From an uncultured Halomicronema sp. (GTDB lineage Bacteria; Cyanobacteriota; Cyanobacteriia; Phormidesmidales; Phormidesmidaceae), in assembly GCA_937899725.1 (NCBI GenBank), contig CALCCA010000088.1, forward strand, positions 1-64,000: 64,000 bases of DNA, given 5' to 3'. The position numbers were made by a program, and so were the translations under genes. The notes below the pieces were generated by a model. That model worked only from the letters and a program-made list of their open reading frames with translations, ran no database searches and was not told the DNA's origin. Numbering within the stretch: the first letter of the stretch is position 1; every line of letters begins with the position of its first letter. Below, piece after piece: positions 5,232-11,766 of the stretch.

Positions 5232-5271
5232 CCTGAATTTCAGGCCATAACACCTGAATTTAACTGAATTT
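5232..5271. promoter_or_regulatory. Helically phased CTGAATTT repeats, candidate regulator site
   Basis: CTGAATTT occurs at 5233-5240, 5254-5261 and 5264-5271, with start-to-start spacing of 21 and 10 bases, close to two and one helix turns. The first copy also lies in a perfect palindrome, CCTGAA-T-TTCAGG (5232-5244). The block is about 45-85 bases upstream of the proposed small-RNA start. Which protein binds, if any, is unknown. Confidence 0.4.
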
Positions 5272-5317
5272 ATTCCTATGGCTCCACTTAAGAGCCTGAG
5301 CCACTATAAAAACATCC

Positions 5318-5390
5318 TGTAGACTCGCGTGTGCTCCTTGAGCACGAGCCGGGCTGGAACCTCCTTCGGGAAGAGCCAGCTCGGCTTTTT
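5318..5390 (+). ncRNA. Candidate small RNA of about 73 nt with two hairpins
   Basis: TATAAA at 5305-5310 is a plausible -10 element, placing a start near 5318. The transcript would form a perfect hairpin (GTGCTC 5331-5336, loop CTT, GAGCAC 5340-5345). A terminator follows: GCCGGGCTGG (5348-5357) with CCAGCTCGGC (5376-5385), ten pairs including one G-U, then five T. No reading frame fits inside. It lacks the ACTCCTCACAC core of Yfr1, so I do not assign it to a known family. The second hairpin could instead be a carB terminator, but it lies 400 bases from the carB stop. Confidence 0.45.
5348..5390 (+). terminator. Rho-independent terminator
   Basis: A ten-pair GC-rich stem with an 18-base loop is followed directly by TTTTT at 5386-5390. 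It ends the small-RNA candidate. Confidence 0.7.
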
Positions 5391-5728
5391 ATTTTAAAGA
5401 CAATTTCCCCTCTGCGATCACGTCACTTCCCACCCTGAGAATGCCGAGCATCGTCTGCGCCGGCTCTCCACCCCGTTGGTTTGCAGGGCAGTGCTCACCT
5501 GTTGGCGCTGAGCCGGGTGACTTTGGCAACGCCGAAGAAAAAGGGGAAATCGTCTTATCTAAGTCGGTAGCCATCAATAAACATTGCTGTAAGGGATGTT
5601 GTGGCGACAGCCCAACACACGACTAGGGTAGGCTTTGGCACGTCACGCTAGACGATGAAACATCCTAAGATAATTAGGGCTTTCTACTGATCGGTTCACC
5701 GAAACTCAAAAGAGGGGGAGTGAGAATC

Positions 5729-6277
5729 ATGATCAAAACCTTTGAAGAAGCCCATCAGCTGATTTTAGAGCTGCAGATCTGCACCATCTTCGAAAGTTCC
5801 AAAACTGAGCTCCCTTCACTATGGGAACATCTTGATTTGCCTGAAAAGCAGGAAGGCGAAAAAGGCTGGGGGCAAAAGGTATCCGCCGTCTGGGATTGGA
5901 AAAATCGTTTACCGGCAGAGTTCCCCGATGAGATTTTCTACGGCAAAATCAAAGGCGGGCTGGCAGCATTAATGACCCTAGACTATCTGCGAGACGTTCA
6001 TTTCAAGTCGTCTTACAAATGTGTCGACGAACTCCATCCCTTGTCAACTCATATTTTCAAAAAAATTCGAGCAGAGCCCTGGGAAACGACGAGCCTGAGA
6101 AAAGAGATGATTCAAGAATGCGGCTGCTCTAAAAGCCAGTTTGATACGGCATTAAAAAATCTGCAGATTTCGCTGAATATTGCTCGCTCAAACGATCTCG
6201 AGATTGAGCGGGATACCTGGTTGACCTTTCAAGAGCTGTATCCAGAGATTTGGAATTGGCATGTCTTGGAAGATTGA
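5729..6277 (+). CDS. AlkZ-related-like protein with C-terminal winged-helix region
   Basis: The 182-residue protein begins MIKTFEEAHQLILEL and has LPSLWEHL, WDWKNRLP and IFYGKIKGG in its first half. These resemble the small AlkZ-related proteins (relatives of the AlkZ/YcaQ DNA glycosylase superfamily). The second half (SLRKEMIQECGC through TWLTFQELYPEIW) looks like a winged-helix element. I assign the fold group by pattern recognition only, and no enzymatic activity should be assumed. The frame also opens at GTG 5720, but AGGGGGAG at 5712-5719 is correctly spaced for the ATG at 5729. The gene stands alone, converging on the large kinase gene, and may be expressed independently. Confidence 0.55.
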   Translation: MIKTFEEAHQLILELQICTIFESSKTELPSLWEHLDLPEKQEGEKGWGQKVSAVWDWKNRLPAEFPDEIFYGKIKGGLAALMTLDYLRDVHFKSSYKCVDELHPLSTHIFKKIRAEPWETTSLRKEMIQECGCSKSQFDTALKNLQISLNIARSNDLEIERDTWLTFQELYPEIWNWHVLED

Positions 6278-6372: not shown

Positions 6373-9300
6373 CTACGAGATCGGCAGCACGATCGCAAAC
6401 TCCGTCCCGCGACCCAGTTCGGACTGGCAGCTGAAGGTGCCGCCGTGCTGTTCAGTTACGATCTGATAGCTGATCGACAGGCCCAATCCCGTACCTTTGC
6501 CGATCGGTTTGGTGGTGAACAGATGGTCAAAAATCTTGGCTTGGGTGGCGGCATCCATCCCTCTGCCATTGTCGCGAATGCGAATTTCGACACAGTTATA
6601 CTCAAGAGCCGTCCTAGTCTCCACGATAATTTGCTGGGGACTGGCTTCTAACGCGTCAAATGAGGTGTGTTGAGCGGCTTCGTCAAAGACATCGATCGCA
6701 TTGGCCAAAATATTTAGGAACACCTGGTTGATCTGTCCCGGAAAACACTCGACGTCGGGAATCTCACCATAGTTTTTGGTGATTAGGATCGCGGGGCGAT
6801 TGTGATTGGCTTTGAGCCGGTACTTCAAAATCAATAGCGTGCTATCGATGCCTTCATGCAGGTTGATTTTGACTTTGTGCTCGGCATCACCGCGAGAAAA
6901 CGTCCGCAAACTGGTGCTGATGCCTTTGATCCGGTCGATCGCCCCTTGCATCGACTCTAAAAGCTGGGGTAAATCTTCCCGCAAAAACGCTAGGTCAATC
7001 TCATCGGCACTGTCTTGAATGGAGTCAACTGCCTGAGGATACTGCTGCTCATAGCGTTGGATATGTTTTAGCAAATCCTGCGCATAGTCTTTGGCATTCG
7101 TGAGGCTGCCGTTGAGAAAGCCGATGGGGTTATTGATTTCGTGGGCAATCCCAGCCACCAAGTTGCCCAGTGTGGCCATTTTTTCGTTTTGCACGATCCG
7201 AATTTGCGATTGCTGCAGCTGCCGAGCATATCGCTGAGATTGTTCATACAGACGGGCATTTTCTAAGGAAATCGCCGCCTGGGCACAGAGTAAGTTCAAC
7301 ACCGTTAACCGTTCTTCCGTAAAAACCTCACTCGTGTGTTGATTACTCAGATACAACAGCCCAATCTGCTGCCCTTGATGTTGAATGGGCAGGCAAAGCA
7401 CGCTTTTGGGGTGGTGCTGCCGCAGATAATCGTCCACAATCGGCAACGCTGTCTGCAGATCATTAACGACGACCCGCTCGTCCCTGTTTTTGACGTAGCG
7501 AATCAGGCTGAGGGGCAGCTGTGGGTGAGCTTCTAGCGGGTCGCTACGGAGTTCTATCTGCTCTGTCGTCGCCACCACCTTGACCTGCCAATCGCCCTCA
7601 CTGCTGGGCAAGATCAGCGCACAGCGATCGCCGCCCGAACTTTGCAAAATAATCTGCGTAAACTGATGCAGCAGTTCTTCTAAATGAATCGTGCCCGAGA
7701 GCGTCTGTGAAGCCTTGAGCACCGTGGCAAAGTCAAACGTGCTGTTGATGTCTGCTGGATCTGCCAAGCCGATGGCCCTTGGGGGCGTTTGCGCCGTTAG
7801 GGTGGTATCCGTCGAGACCGCGAGGGGAGCCGTGACCGGCGATCGTGAGCTGGGCGACGACAGCCGAGACCGCAAAAGCTCCGGATAGCGCTGCTCTAAA
7901 TCAGCGGTTTTAGCCTGAGCGCCCCACTGGTCATAGTGCTCATAGGCCGCTTGCAGATAGACAGTGGCGAGCGGCCGTCTGTGCGCCCGGAGATAAAACT
8001 CCGCAGCCAGTTCATTCGCCAAGGCCGCCTCTTGCCCATAGCCGTTGGCTTCGGCCCCAGCGATGGCGCGATCGTAATAGTCAGCGGCCGCATAGCGATC
8101 GCCCTGGACCCGATGCTGTTCCGCCAGGAGCAGATCAAGCTTGTGCTGAAAATTGCTAGGAGCCTGGCTGGCCCATCGCCGCAGTTCGGCTAACCCGTGT
8201 TGAATTTTGTGGAATAAGGGAGAGGCCGCGTCGGGCGGTTGTTGAGCATAAACCTGCAGCCGTCCTAACGTCGCAAAAAAGTGAAAGACCGGCACCGAAA
8301 TCATGCCGGTGGAGGCACTGAGATACTGTTCTGACCAGTCGATCAGCGCCACAATGTCGTCATATCTGGCAAACAAACAGTGCAGGACAATCTTGTGGAG
8401 AGACAGATATTGCACGCCCGATAGCACTTGGTTGTCGATAAATCGGGCCAAAACCTGCTGCTCGTCAAAGACACGGCCCTGGAGCAGGCAAGGATCTGGG
8501 GAAGGCTCCAGCAGATTTAACGCAACTTGATGAACGAGCTGATTGCAGGCCAGCGATATTTTTTGGTTGAGCTGCTCTAACAGCAAGCCGTAGGCATCGG
8601 CACCCTGCCGCAGTTCCACCAGGTTTAACCCACTGAAGTAGGAATATTGCGACCAGTTGTAGGCCGCATAGCCAGCAAATTCCAAATCGCCCTGGTCGAT
8701 GCCACTTTGACACCCCTCTCGCAACACTGGGGGCGCGGCCCGCAGCGAAATTTTGCCATGCATACTAAAAATCGCGGCCTGGTTAAACGTCCTGGCCTTG
8801 ACGTCTTCGGCCTCCAACTTTTCCACTAACTGAATCGCCAGTTGCCCAAACTCATAGGACGCGCCTAAATCCTGGGAGACGCTGTTGAGAATGGCCGAAT
8901 AGTTAGCGTAGCCAAAGGCTGACTGGGCACAGTTGCCAAACTGAATAGAGAGCTGGATTTGTTGACAGGCAATGAACGGTAGAATCTCCGGTTTCGCAAT
9001 AAAAGATGGCGCAAAGATGCTCGACAACAGAATCATCGCCGCCACTTTTTCCCGCTTAGTCATGAGCGGCAAATGGATGAGCTCAGCCACCGCTCGCTCC
9101 GCCCAAAGCGCTTTAGTGTTGCGCAACTCGGCTTGCAGGTCAGCGGGCGTCGGGGACTCTGGCAACGGGATGCCCAGTAGGGTTAACGCCGTCAGCGCAA
9201 TGTCAATCGCCACGGCGGGCATGCCCTGGGCCATCTGCGCTTGAATCTGCACGTCGTAAAACTTGACTTGATCTAACACCGTGCGACTCTGGCGCAGCGC

Positions 9301-11766
9301 GATCGCTGACCAAGCGGCCATCTGCGCATAATCACCGCAGACAAAAGCTGTTTTGACCGCCCCGGCATGCAGATCCAGGGCGAGTTGGTAGGTCGTTTGC
9401 CAAGCATCACTGGCGAGGAGCGACAACCCCACCTGAAAATATGCCAGCGCTGATTCATAGGCCGCAGTCGCCCTGGCCTTACGTCCGGCTAACCAATTCA
9501 AATGCGCCAGTTGCGGCTGCTCGTCGGGCCGCAGCAGCGCGCGACTCAAATTCCAATGATTCACCACTTCAAACAGGTTTGCTTGCTGATCGGGCGTATC
9601 CCCCAATAACATGCGACCGATTTGCAGGTGAATGGCCTGCTGCTGCTCGGCGGGAATCAGGTTGTAGGCAGCCTGTTGAATGCGATCGTGGGCAAAGCGA
9701 TAGCTGACGGTCACATTGTAGTTACGGATCTCGCCCGGTTCACCCTGCTGAAAAAACTTGTAGGTCTCGCTTTCGGGCATGATCAGGTTATCTTGCAGCG
9801 CGGGCCACAGGGTCGTCGCGATCTCTTCCGGGGCACAGCCGCGGACGATCGCGATCGTCTGTAAGTCAAAGCGGTTGCCCACGCAGGCCGCGAGCATCAA
9901 CACCGCCTGAGTCGTCGGGGGCAGCTTTTGTAATCGGCCCACCATGAACTCCACAACGTTGTCCGTTAAGGCCAACTGTCGCACCGACGCTAAGTCACAC
10001 TGCCAATGACCGACCTCGCTATCAAAGACCAGGCGGCCCTCTTCGTACAAGCCCTGCAAAAATCGAGTGGTAAAAAACGGGTTGCCCTGCGTTTTTTGGT
10101 AAACCAGTTGCGCGAGCGGTGCCGCCATCTCAGCGGAGCATAGCAGCGTATCCGCCACCAAGGAGGTGATATCGGCCTGGGCTAGGGGCATCAGCGTCAG
10201 CCGATTGACGACACCGCCCCGACCGATAATGTCGTCGAGGGCTAACATCAACGGGTGCGCCGGAAAGACCTCGTTATCGCGATACGCCCCCAACACGAGC
10301 AGATAGCCGGTGTCTAACTCGGCCATGAGCAGCTTTAGCAGAGTCAACGAGGCGGCGTCAGCCCACTGCAAATCGTCGAGAAAAATCACCAGCGGATGCG
10401 CTTTCGTGGTGAAGACCCGCACAAACTGCCCAAAGAGTCCGTTGAAGCGATTTTGAGCCGCACTGCCCGACAGCTCTGGCACCGGCGGTTGCGGACCAAT
10501 GATGGCGGCCAATTCGGGAATCACCTCCACAATGACCTGGCCGCGATCGCCCACGGCGTCTAGAATTTTCGCGCGCCAAGCCTGTAAGGCCGTATCCGAT
10601 TCACCCAGCAGTTGCCCTAACAGACTGCGAAAGGCTTGCACAAAGGCCGAAAACGGCACGTTGCGATTGAACTGGTCAAACTTGCCCTGGATAAAGTAGC
10701 CCTTTTGACGCGTAATCGGCTTGTGAACTTCGTTGATGATGGCAGTTTTGCCCACCCCCGAAAATCCCGTCACCAGCATCAGTTCAGACCGAGCCTGAAT
10801 GACACGCTCGAAGGCGGCCAAAAGCTGGTTGACTTCGGGCTGGCGACCATAGAGCTTTTCAGGAATCAAAAAGCGATCGCCGACATCTTGCTGGGCCAGC
10901 TCAAAGGCGGCGACGTCTCCCGTCGTTTGCACCTGCTGCTGACAGAGTTGCAGATCATGCTGGAGTCCGAGGGCACTCTGGTAGCGATCTTCGGCATTTT
11001 TGGCCAGCAGTTTCAGGATGATTGCCTGCACGGCTTCAGGAATAGGAGATGGGCTCGCCGCCGGAAAGGTCACCGGGCGAGCGAGATGACAATGCACCAG
11101 CTCCATCGGGTCTTGCCGGTCAAAGGGGGGCTCACCGGTCAACAGCTCAAACAGCGTGGCCCCCAGCGCATAGAAATCGGTGCGATAGTCAATGCCCCGA
11201 TTCATGCGTCCCGTCTGCTCCGGTGACAGGTAGGCCAGCGTGCCTTCTAACACGGTGGGACTGGCCAGCTGTTGGCGCTCTCGAGGCAGCAGACTGGCAA
11301 TGCTAAAGTCAATCAGCTGAACTCGCCCGCTCTCGGGATGAATCAGAATATTGCTCGGTTTAATATCTTTATGAATGACGCGCTGCTGAATCAGATAGTG
11401 CAGGGCATCGGTCAGCTGCAGCGCGACATCCAGCACCTCCGCAACGCCCCAGGGATGCTGCGCTCGATAGGTGTTTAACGCGACCAATCCCTCATCGGGC
11501 ATGACCAGCACGTAGCTAGCACCATGGCGCTCTAGCGCCAGAGGATGCACGATATGGGGATGCTGGAGACAACGCGCCAGGGCGTACTGATTGCGAAATT
11601 GCACCAACTCCTGGATGTCGGCGGGCTCGGGATGCAGCACCTTGATGACCACCGACTGCTGATCACGTTGCAGCGCTCGGTAGACTTCGGTGCGGGCTCC
11701 CTGCGAGAGCTGTTCAACAACGGTATAACCCGGTAAGAGGGGAAAGGTGCGATCGCGGGTATTCAT
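6373..11766 (-). CDS. Trifunctional Ser/Thr kinase, ATPase and sensor histidine kinase (HstK type)
   Basis: This 1797-residue signalling protein joins three machines. The N-terminus (about 10-275) is a Ser/Thr kinase domain with lysine in VVIKVL, catalytic loop HKDIKPSNIL and an activation segment starting IDFSIAS, that is DFS instead of DFG. Next is a PknK-like AAA-type ATPase with Walker A GFSGVGKTA and Walker B LVIFLDDLQWAD, then a long helical-repeat region to about 1270. A GAF domain (about 1330-1490) precedes a histidine kinase: phospho-accepting His1542 in IAHEINNPIGFL, N-box NILANAID, G-boxes DNGRGMD and GKGTGLGLSI. The architecture is known in filamentous cyanobacteria as the HstK family. 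No response regulator gene is nearby, so the partner is unknown. The ATG at 11766 is the natural start. No membrane segment is evident, so it is probably cytoplasmic. Confidence 0.92.
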   Translation of the reverse strand: MNTRDRTFPLLPGYTVVEQLSQGARTEVYRALQRDQQSVVIKVLHPEPADIQELVQFRNQYALARCLQHPHIVHPLALERHGASYVLVMPDEGLVALNTYRAQHPWGVAEVLDVALQLTDALHYLIQQRVIHKDIKPSNILIHPESGRVQLIDFSIASLLPRERQQLASPTVLEGTLAYLSPEQTGRMNRGIDYRTDFYALGATLFELLTGEPPFDRQDPMELVHCHLARPVTFPAASPSPIPEAVQAIILKLLAKNAEDRYQSALGLQHDLQLCQQQVQTTGDVAAFELAQQDVGDRFLIPEKLYGRQPEVNQLLAAFERVIQARSELMLVTGFSGVGKTAIINEVHKPITRQKGYFIQGKFDQFNRNVPFSAFVQAFRSLLGQLLGESDTALQAWRAKILDAVGDRGQVIVEVIPELAAIIGPQPPVPELSGSAAQNRFNGLFGQFVRVFTTKAHPLVIFLDDLQWADAASLTLLKLLMAELDTGYLLVLGAYRDNEVFPAHPLMLALDDIIGRGGVVNRLTLMPLAQADITSLVADTLLCSAEMAAPLAQLVYQKTQGNPFFTTRFLQGLYEEGRLVFDSEVGHWQCDLASVRQLALTDNVVEFMVGRLQKLPPTTQAVLMLAACVGNRFDLQTIAIVRGCAPEEIATTLWPALQDNLIMPESETYKFFQQGEPGEIRNYNVTVSYRFAHDRIQQAAYNLIPAEQQQAIHLQIGRMLLGDTPDQQANLFEVVNHWNLSRALLRPDEQPQLAHLNWLAGRKARATAAYESALAYFQVGLSLLASDAWQTTYQLALDLHAGAVKTAFVCGDYAQMAAWSAIALRQSRTVLDQVKFYDVQIQAQMAQGMPAVAIDIALTALTLLGIPLPESPTPADLQAELRNTKALWAERAVAELIHLPLMTKREKVAAMILLSSIFAPSFIAKPEILPFIACQQIQLSIQFGNCAQSAFGYANYSAILNSVSQDLGASYEFGQLAIQLVEKLEAEDVKARTFNQAAIFSMHGKISLRAAPPVLREGCQSGIDQGDLEFAGYAAYNWSQYSYFSGLNLVELRQGADAYGLLLEQLNQKISLACNQLVHQVALNLLEPSPDPCLLQGRVFDEQQVLARFIDNQVLSGVQYLSLHKIVLHCLFARYDDIVALIDWSEQYLSASTGMISVPVFHFFATLGRLQVYAQQPPDAASPLFHKIQHGLAELRRWASQAPSNFQHKLDLLLAEQHRVQGDRYAAADYYDRAIAGAEANGYGQEAALANELAAEFYLRAHRRPLATVYLQAAYEHYDQWGAQAKTADLEQRYPELLRSRLSSPSSRSPVTAPLAVSTDTTLTAQTPPRAIGLADPADINSTFDFATVLKASQTLSGTIHLEELLHQFTQIILQSSGGDRCALILPSSEGDWQVKVVATTEQIELRSDPLEAHPQLPLSLIRYVKNRDERVVVNDLQTALPIVDDYLRQHHPKSVLCLPIQHQGQQIGLLYLSNQHTSEVFTEERLTVLNLLCAQAAISLENARLYEQSQRYARQLQQSQIRIVQNEKMATLGNLVAGIAHEINNPIGFLNGSLTNAKDYAQDLLKHIQRYEQQYPQAVDSIQDSADEIDLAFLREDLPQLLESMQGAIDRIKGISTSLRTFSRGDAEHKVKINLHEGIDSTLLILKYRLKANHNRPAILITKNYGEIPDVECFPGQINQVFLNILANAIDVFDEAAQHTSFDALEASPQQIIVETRTALEYNCVEIRIRDNGRGMDAATQAKIFDHLFTTKPIGKGTGLGLSISYQIVTEQHGGTFSCQSELGRGTEFAIVLPIS

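Follow-up and report, generated by a model that had tools for sequence, protein, structure and literature searches.

Positions 5232–5390 of the window (the whole 64,000-nucleotide stretch analysed here, from an uncultured Halomicronema sp.) are intergenic and hold repeats, a hairpin and a terminator-like stem in close succession, which raises the question of whether they form a regulated small-RNA (sRNA) gene and, if so, what controls it. Comparison of related genomes supports the prediction from sequence that window 5254–5390 is a real small-RNA gene, that it is regulated, and that it is not Yfr1.

A small-RNA gene downstream of phased repeats

The features of the locus, all on the forward strand, were as follows.
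5232..5244 (+), distal palindromic half-site pair CCTGAATTTCAGG, with the first CTGAATTT (5233–5240) inside it, two turns upstream; in some copies only
5254..5261 (+), operator octamer 1 (CTGAATTT), with a constant distance to the core
5264..5271 (+), operator octamer 2 (CTGAATTT), 10 bp from octamer 1; conserved
5279..5284 (+), -35 element TGGCTC; T5279 100%, G5281 96%
5302..5307 (+), -10 element CACTAT (consensus SANNAT); A5303 100%, A5306 96%, T5307 100%
5313..5390 (+), sRNA gene with a predicted transcript of ~77–78 nt, start 5313/5314; covariance model R1 match of 93.2 bits, fold z -3.3
5313..5337 (+), near-invariant 5' core CATCCTGTAGACTCGCGTGTGCTCC, the first 16 nt and most other positions 100%; candidate seed
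5331..5345 (+), hairpin 1, GUGCUC-CUU-GAGCAC, in type A copies only; 89% of cells paired
5346..5390 (+), terminator stem and U5, from folds and covariation

The octamer CTGAATTT started at 5233, 5254 and 5264 and occurred seven times in total on the two strands of the window. These three copies and the 13-base palindrome CCTGAATTTCAGG (5232–5244) were located exactly where an earlier note on this DNA had placed them. One octamer pair at 10-bp spacing was present in the window against 0.11 expected, with at most two mismatches allowed. As a family trait, the claimed trio of upstream repeats was reduced to the copies at 5254 and 5264; the palindromic copy at 5233 recurred at the same position, as CCTGAANTTCAGG, in some copies only (L024, L029 and L038), and its family-wide conservation was low.

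Comparison of the family copies revealed no conserved reading frame in the sRNA, as the earlier note had claimed for the window. A GTG frame through the RNA, open in the window, was interrupted by TAG in L023, L040 and L042 and was rejected as a candidate because it is broken in these copies. The unit shows several of the features by which a trans-encoded sRNA is recognised, namely its own promoter and terminator, an intergenic position and no conserved ORF. That it is a regulated gene, also proposed earlier, was supported by its multi-copy family, the constant spacing between operator and core and the compensatory changes in the terminator stem. No Rfam family reached its gathering score in the window, in agreement with the previous exclusion of Yfr1, and a scan at lax thresholds returned chance matches only.

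Promoter and transcription start

In a redundancy-weighted conservation profile of the family copies, peaks fell on the octamers, T5279/G5281, A5303, A5306 and T5307, followed by an unbroken block from 5313. The -35 element reads TTGGCG or TTGTCG in relatives and TTGAC in RiPP promoters with the same operator, and a 17-bp spacer separates it from the -10 element. Among the copies read, no indels were seen between T5279 and the core, and the distance from the octamers to the core was constant. The -10 element proposed previously (TATAAA, 5305) had to be abandoned, since its position-6 T is missing in nearly all copies and the conserved hexamer lies at 5302–5307. This hexamer, 17 bp from the conserved 5279–5284, moves the start from near 5318 to ~5313/5314; the compact RNA of the earlier note was retained, but its length changed from ~73 nt to ~77 nt. 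The promoter is predicted to be of the sigma70 type, with the first invariant base as the first transcribed base.

A generic consensus scanner reported neither a promoter nor a terminator, probably because the hexamers are weak by E. coli rules and the terminator stem contains an internal loop. The support for both elements is comparative.

Part of the core could itself be promoter, with TAGACT (5320–5325) as the -10 element, a start near 5331, at the base of hairpin 1, and an RNA of ~60 nt. TAGACT matches the pattern TANNNT and is similar to TAnACT, the -10 in the regulator promoters described below. However, the surrounding positions are equally invariant, beyond what a promoter requires; the copies conserve a better -35/-10 pair further upstream, spaced by 17 bp; and a diverged unit in genus g10 keeps the operator and not TAGACT. 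We consider this arrangement improbable and retain the start at 5313/5314.

RNA core and fold

Every copy began with the 16-nt invariant sequence CATCCTGTAGACTCGC, which lies inside the 25-nt near-invariant 5' core, and the 5' part up to 5330 was unpaired in most single-sequence folds. The 78-nt RNA folded with -36.1 kcal/mol (z = -3.3 vs shuffles). The perfect 6-pair hairpin described previously is present at 5331–5345 (GTGCTC-CTT-GAGCAC in the DNA) but is not universal, being absent in the type B copies of Nodosilinea (g12) and of g14, whose terminator arm is longer. The terminator was corroborated: window DNA at 5346–5390 comprises a GC-rich stem and T5, and the stem covaries, with changes on both sides in eight of its ten pairs. 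Over the whole structure, 40 cells were changed on both sides vs 12.0 in shuffles. Conserved hairpins with compensating changes, which the earlier note had expected of a covariance-model search, were therefore found for the terminator stem but not for the first hairpin across all copies. On the sequences compared, the conserved feature of the RNA is its unpaired 5' core, not hairpin 1. A single-stranded 5' stretch that hardly varies is typical of a seed.

Distribution and copy number

A DNA search of 59 relatives gave matches in 20 genomes, with up to seven per genome. A covariance model built from 27 copies matched 40 of the 65 genomes of the same order, all in one GTDB-style family and comprising seven genera, establishing that the sRNA is conserved in close relatives; among 386 genomes sampled across the phylum, the model's only other matches were in genus g1. 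The exact 21-base core pattern was found in 39 stretches among 84,980 species genomes, none of them outside this family of filamentous cyanobacteria (Nodosilinea, Halomicronema, Leptolyngbya sp. PCC 6406, Phormidium tenue, Oscillatoria sp. CS-180 and MAGs). The core was not found in viral contigs, and a similarity search of phages and plasmids was likewise empty. In the literature, the core sequence led only to unrelated papers, and no paper on the RNA was found. Together, these searches point to a previously undescribed sRNA family restricted to one family of filamentous cyanobacteria.

In the window's own genome, the start of another contig (G000:C23:1-551, L022) carried another complete sRNA copy and, ~340 bp upstream of it, the last part of a third. 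These are tandem copies cut by the assembly, and the genome holds at least two copies and probably a third.

Several dispersed copies per genome would also be expected of a mobile repeat or miniature transposon that is not a gene. Homology is, however, confined to the promoter and the RNA; from copy to copy the core stays invariant, but flanks and terminators do not; and genus g12 carries one syntenic copy, so that this explanation is scarcely credible. The terminator, and the position of one copy 80–631 bp before an ABC transporter gene in g1, g7 and g11, would suit a cis-acting leader or attenuator of a downstream gene; this is highly improbable, as copies adjoin unrelated genes in both orientations and the window's next ORF, which is AlkZ-related, lies 330 bp away. 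We therefore keep to an independent sRNA gene.

Operator octamers and the HTH-STAND-WD40 protein

Two octamers 10 bp apart, with the consensus CTGARYTT, preceded every sRNA copy. In 64 family genomes the degenerate octamer pair had 56 exact matches, vs 0 for the reversed pattern. Sorted by position and by reading of the sites, 39 of these lay before the sRNA, 13 before a gene encoding an HTH-STAND protein, the predicted regulator, two in genus g10 and two elsewhere. The octamers always pointed towards the sRNA and always away from the regulator gene. Genera without operator matches were also without the sRNA, and the genera with the sRNA coincided with those having operator-bearing regulators. 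In the window's genome, matches with at most one mismatch were limited to both full-length sRNA copies, the gene of the predicted regulator (contig C150) and one intergenic site on contig C4. The C4 site (G000:C4:7811-7828, L057), where the octamer pair deviates at one position and no gene was recognised, is possibly a chance match or another target.

The g10 operator sites (L139 and L140) led to a diverged RNA-like unit, conserved in two species, with a TATCCGAAGTACCTAAGGTCATGCC core, a long stem and T7, which the sRNA covariance model missed. There the operator thus predicted an sRNA-like gene. By eye, the genes on either side of the unit encode a ClC-like channel and a metallophosphatase-like protein.

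The 13 regulator sites lay 20–50 bp before the start of a large gene. Its protein, which begins with MDFEEIAVLINQ or similar, contains a predicted sigma4-like HTH, an NB-ARC/STAND ATPase and WD40 repeats. In the window's genome this gene is located at ~29.6 kb of contig C150 (G000:C150; L143:2657-6001). The protein combines an NB-ARC/STAND ATPase with a repeat sensor, as STAND regulators do. NB-ARC and AAA matches were obtained in two orthologues and WD40 propellers in L143, and the ATPase showed AfsR-like similarity below the curated cut-off. The HTH is N-terminal, with Sigma70_r4 as its best Pfam match (3 of 11 members, best 2.7e-6); that of the window genome's own protein had no Pfam match, and comparison with the PDB gave a weak match to SigF.

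The octamer pair was present in the promoters of 34 of the 36 orthologues (15–16 of 16 positions; the exceptions were L176 and L177), vs none of 17 paralogues. On the protein tree the operator label needed one change vs 14.6 in shuffles, with weak support (54/10) for a single clade of operator-bearing proteins. In L138, several additional CTGAAYTT-like repeats were seen from position 2001 (+), together with a second AACTTTCTGTATTGG stretch resembling a promoter, in the interval that separates the HTH-STAND gene from a 137-aa ORF.

Proposed mechanism

Because the operator and this protein group travel together, we infer that the STAND protein binds the octamers. Our main reading, to which we assign a probability of roughly 0.6, is that the phased repeats are the binding site of a STAND regulator similar to MalT and AfsR, which regulates its own gene and is the activator of a trans-acting sRNA of ~77 nt. 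On sensing a signal through its repeat domain, the STAND protein would oligomerise and bind the phased repeats jointly. MalT-type STAND regulators are described as multimerising on activation (PMC4381067), and similar behaviour here would explain binding to phased repeats. At the sRNA promoter, 7 bp separate the end of the octamers from the -35 element downstream, which is an activator position, and the bound STAND protein probably turns the sRNA on from there. At the regulator's own gene the octamers have the opposite orientation and lie close to the -10 element, suggesting autoregulation, probably repression. The RNA would then base-pair with its target mRNAs through the unpaired 5' core, and its 3' hairpin would serve as terminator.

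Another regulator, for example one of the OmpR/PhoB family, might instead bind the octamers and control both the sRNA and the HTH-STAND gene. OmpR/PhoB-family response regulators also use phased direct repeats, 10-bp tandem repeats suit OmpR-type dimers, and the operators in family f31 and at the AAA-like genes of family f28 (below) have no adjacent operator-bearing HTH-STAND gene. Against this, the octamers mark one HTH-bearing orthologue group (34/36 vs 0/17), and the association recurs in other families, which is the usual mark of autoregulation. We regard a different regulator as unlikely and favour the STAND protein.

The operator module in other cyanobacterial families

The phylum sample was searched with a slightly wider operator pattern, and sites were read in ten places. 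In family f31 (G188 and G198), a module of the form CTGAACTTTYCTGAACTTTTMTSTATNGAC preceded small genes (L209 at 1193 and 2184 (−); L211 at 1391 (+)), and the small gene tested encodes a Nif11-like RiPP precursor (NCBIfam). The f31 HTH-STAND gene itself was without the operator, so that the link between regulator and operator is not proven in this family. In f29 (G208; L213 at 1241 and 1303 (+)), the module lay between an NHLP-type RiPP precursor and a divergent HTH-STAND gene, with octamers facing both. A triple repeat preceded an HTH-STAND gene in f15 (G049). HTH-STAND genes with the operator were thus seen again outside the sRNA-bearing family, in f15 and f29. The same promoter module appears to drive RiPP-precursor genes in two other cyanobacterial families. 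Within the sRNA family, no Nif11 RiPP precursor was found as an operator target near 30 loci, and one match in a coding region was due to chance.

Nostoc-like family f28 carried long CTGAATTTAA iterons before an AAA-like gene or near other genes, possibly representing a wider operator family. Intergenic CTGARTTTAA iterons were located at L214 1323 (−), L215 1344 (−) and L216 1174 (+), those of L214 and L216 preceding the AAA-like gene (MFAKFNPTYQ or MFAKLNPTYQ).

Relation to known systems

To our knowledge, almost nothing has been reported on sRNA control in free-living filamentous cyanobacteria, for which this locus provides a new sRNA family with a predicted operator and regulator. NsiR1 is a multi-copy heterocyst sRNA of cyanobacteria under the dedicated regulator HetR. 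Compared by description, the new sRNA is alike in being multi-copy and in having a dedicated (here predicted) regulator but differs in its operator and regulator type; its host lineages are not known to form heterocysts. The Qrr sRNAs of Vibrio comprise several near-identical copies under one activator, with a sigma54/LuxO promoter; multiple copies and one predicted activator are shared, whereas the promoter of the new sRNA is of the sigma70 type. By analogy, the new sRNA may work like a dedicated sRNA regulon of the Qrr or NsiR1 type, and membership of either is not claimed.

Single-copy Yfr1 and multi-copy Yfr2 are described as short sRNAs in which an unpaired motif is ultraconserved and a terminator forms the 3' end (PMC6778093). 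The new sRNA is likewise short, with a conserved unpaired motif and a 3' terminator, but its motif is another one, it has no Rfam match, and it is confined to one family and has a dedicated operator. MalT and AfsR are described as fusions of an NB-ARC/NOD ATPase to DNA-binding and sensor-repeat domains (PMC4381067, PMC10936776). The HTH-STAND protein, known here from its sequence, has the same architecture, but its HTH is N-terminal and sigma4-like, its sensor is WD40 and its predicted main target is an sRNA. In the vMAP/STAND conflict systems of multicellular bacteria, STAND NTPases occur with pentapeptide and other repeat modules (PMC7159879). The output predicted here is RNA, in contrast to the protein effector of such systems, and no vWA/MoxR ternary operon was noticed.

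STAND/WD40 proteins are abundant in multicellular cyanobacteria, and for most of them no output has been described; with its operator defined, one of them becomes a testable regulator. Tentatively, and with considerable doubt, we propose that an NLR-like STAND sensor of filamentous cyanobacteria, once it detects its signal, turns on a multi-copy sRNA whose seed is near-invariant, and that this operator module serves to turn on RiPP peptide precursors in other families of cyanobacteria. If true, this would represent a conserved signalling switch in which RNA and peptide outputs are interchangeable. The RiPP promoters that share the module suggest that it is connected with peptide production.

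Target search and genomic neighbours

In the genus, the extended complement of the 5' core matched sRNA genes and a few sites with three mismatches, near the control level. One g10 species showed strong pairing with the regulator mRNA leader, and some g1 genomes showed modest pairing; as this is not conserved, it was rejected as a general mechanism. No target emerged from these searches. No conserved neighbour gene explained all copies. The ABC transporter-like gene lying 80–631 bp downstream of one sRNA copy (L116, L096, L089, L110, L119 and L099) is a conserved neighbour in the three genera g1, g7 and g11. In the window, 5720–6277 (+), just downstream of the sRNA, encodes a small protein (Pfam AlkZ-rel, 4.7e-12), and 6373–11766 (−) is a 1797-aa ORF that by eye resembles a hybrid Ser/Thr kinase with ATPase, GAF and histidine kinase parts.
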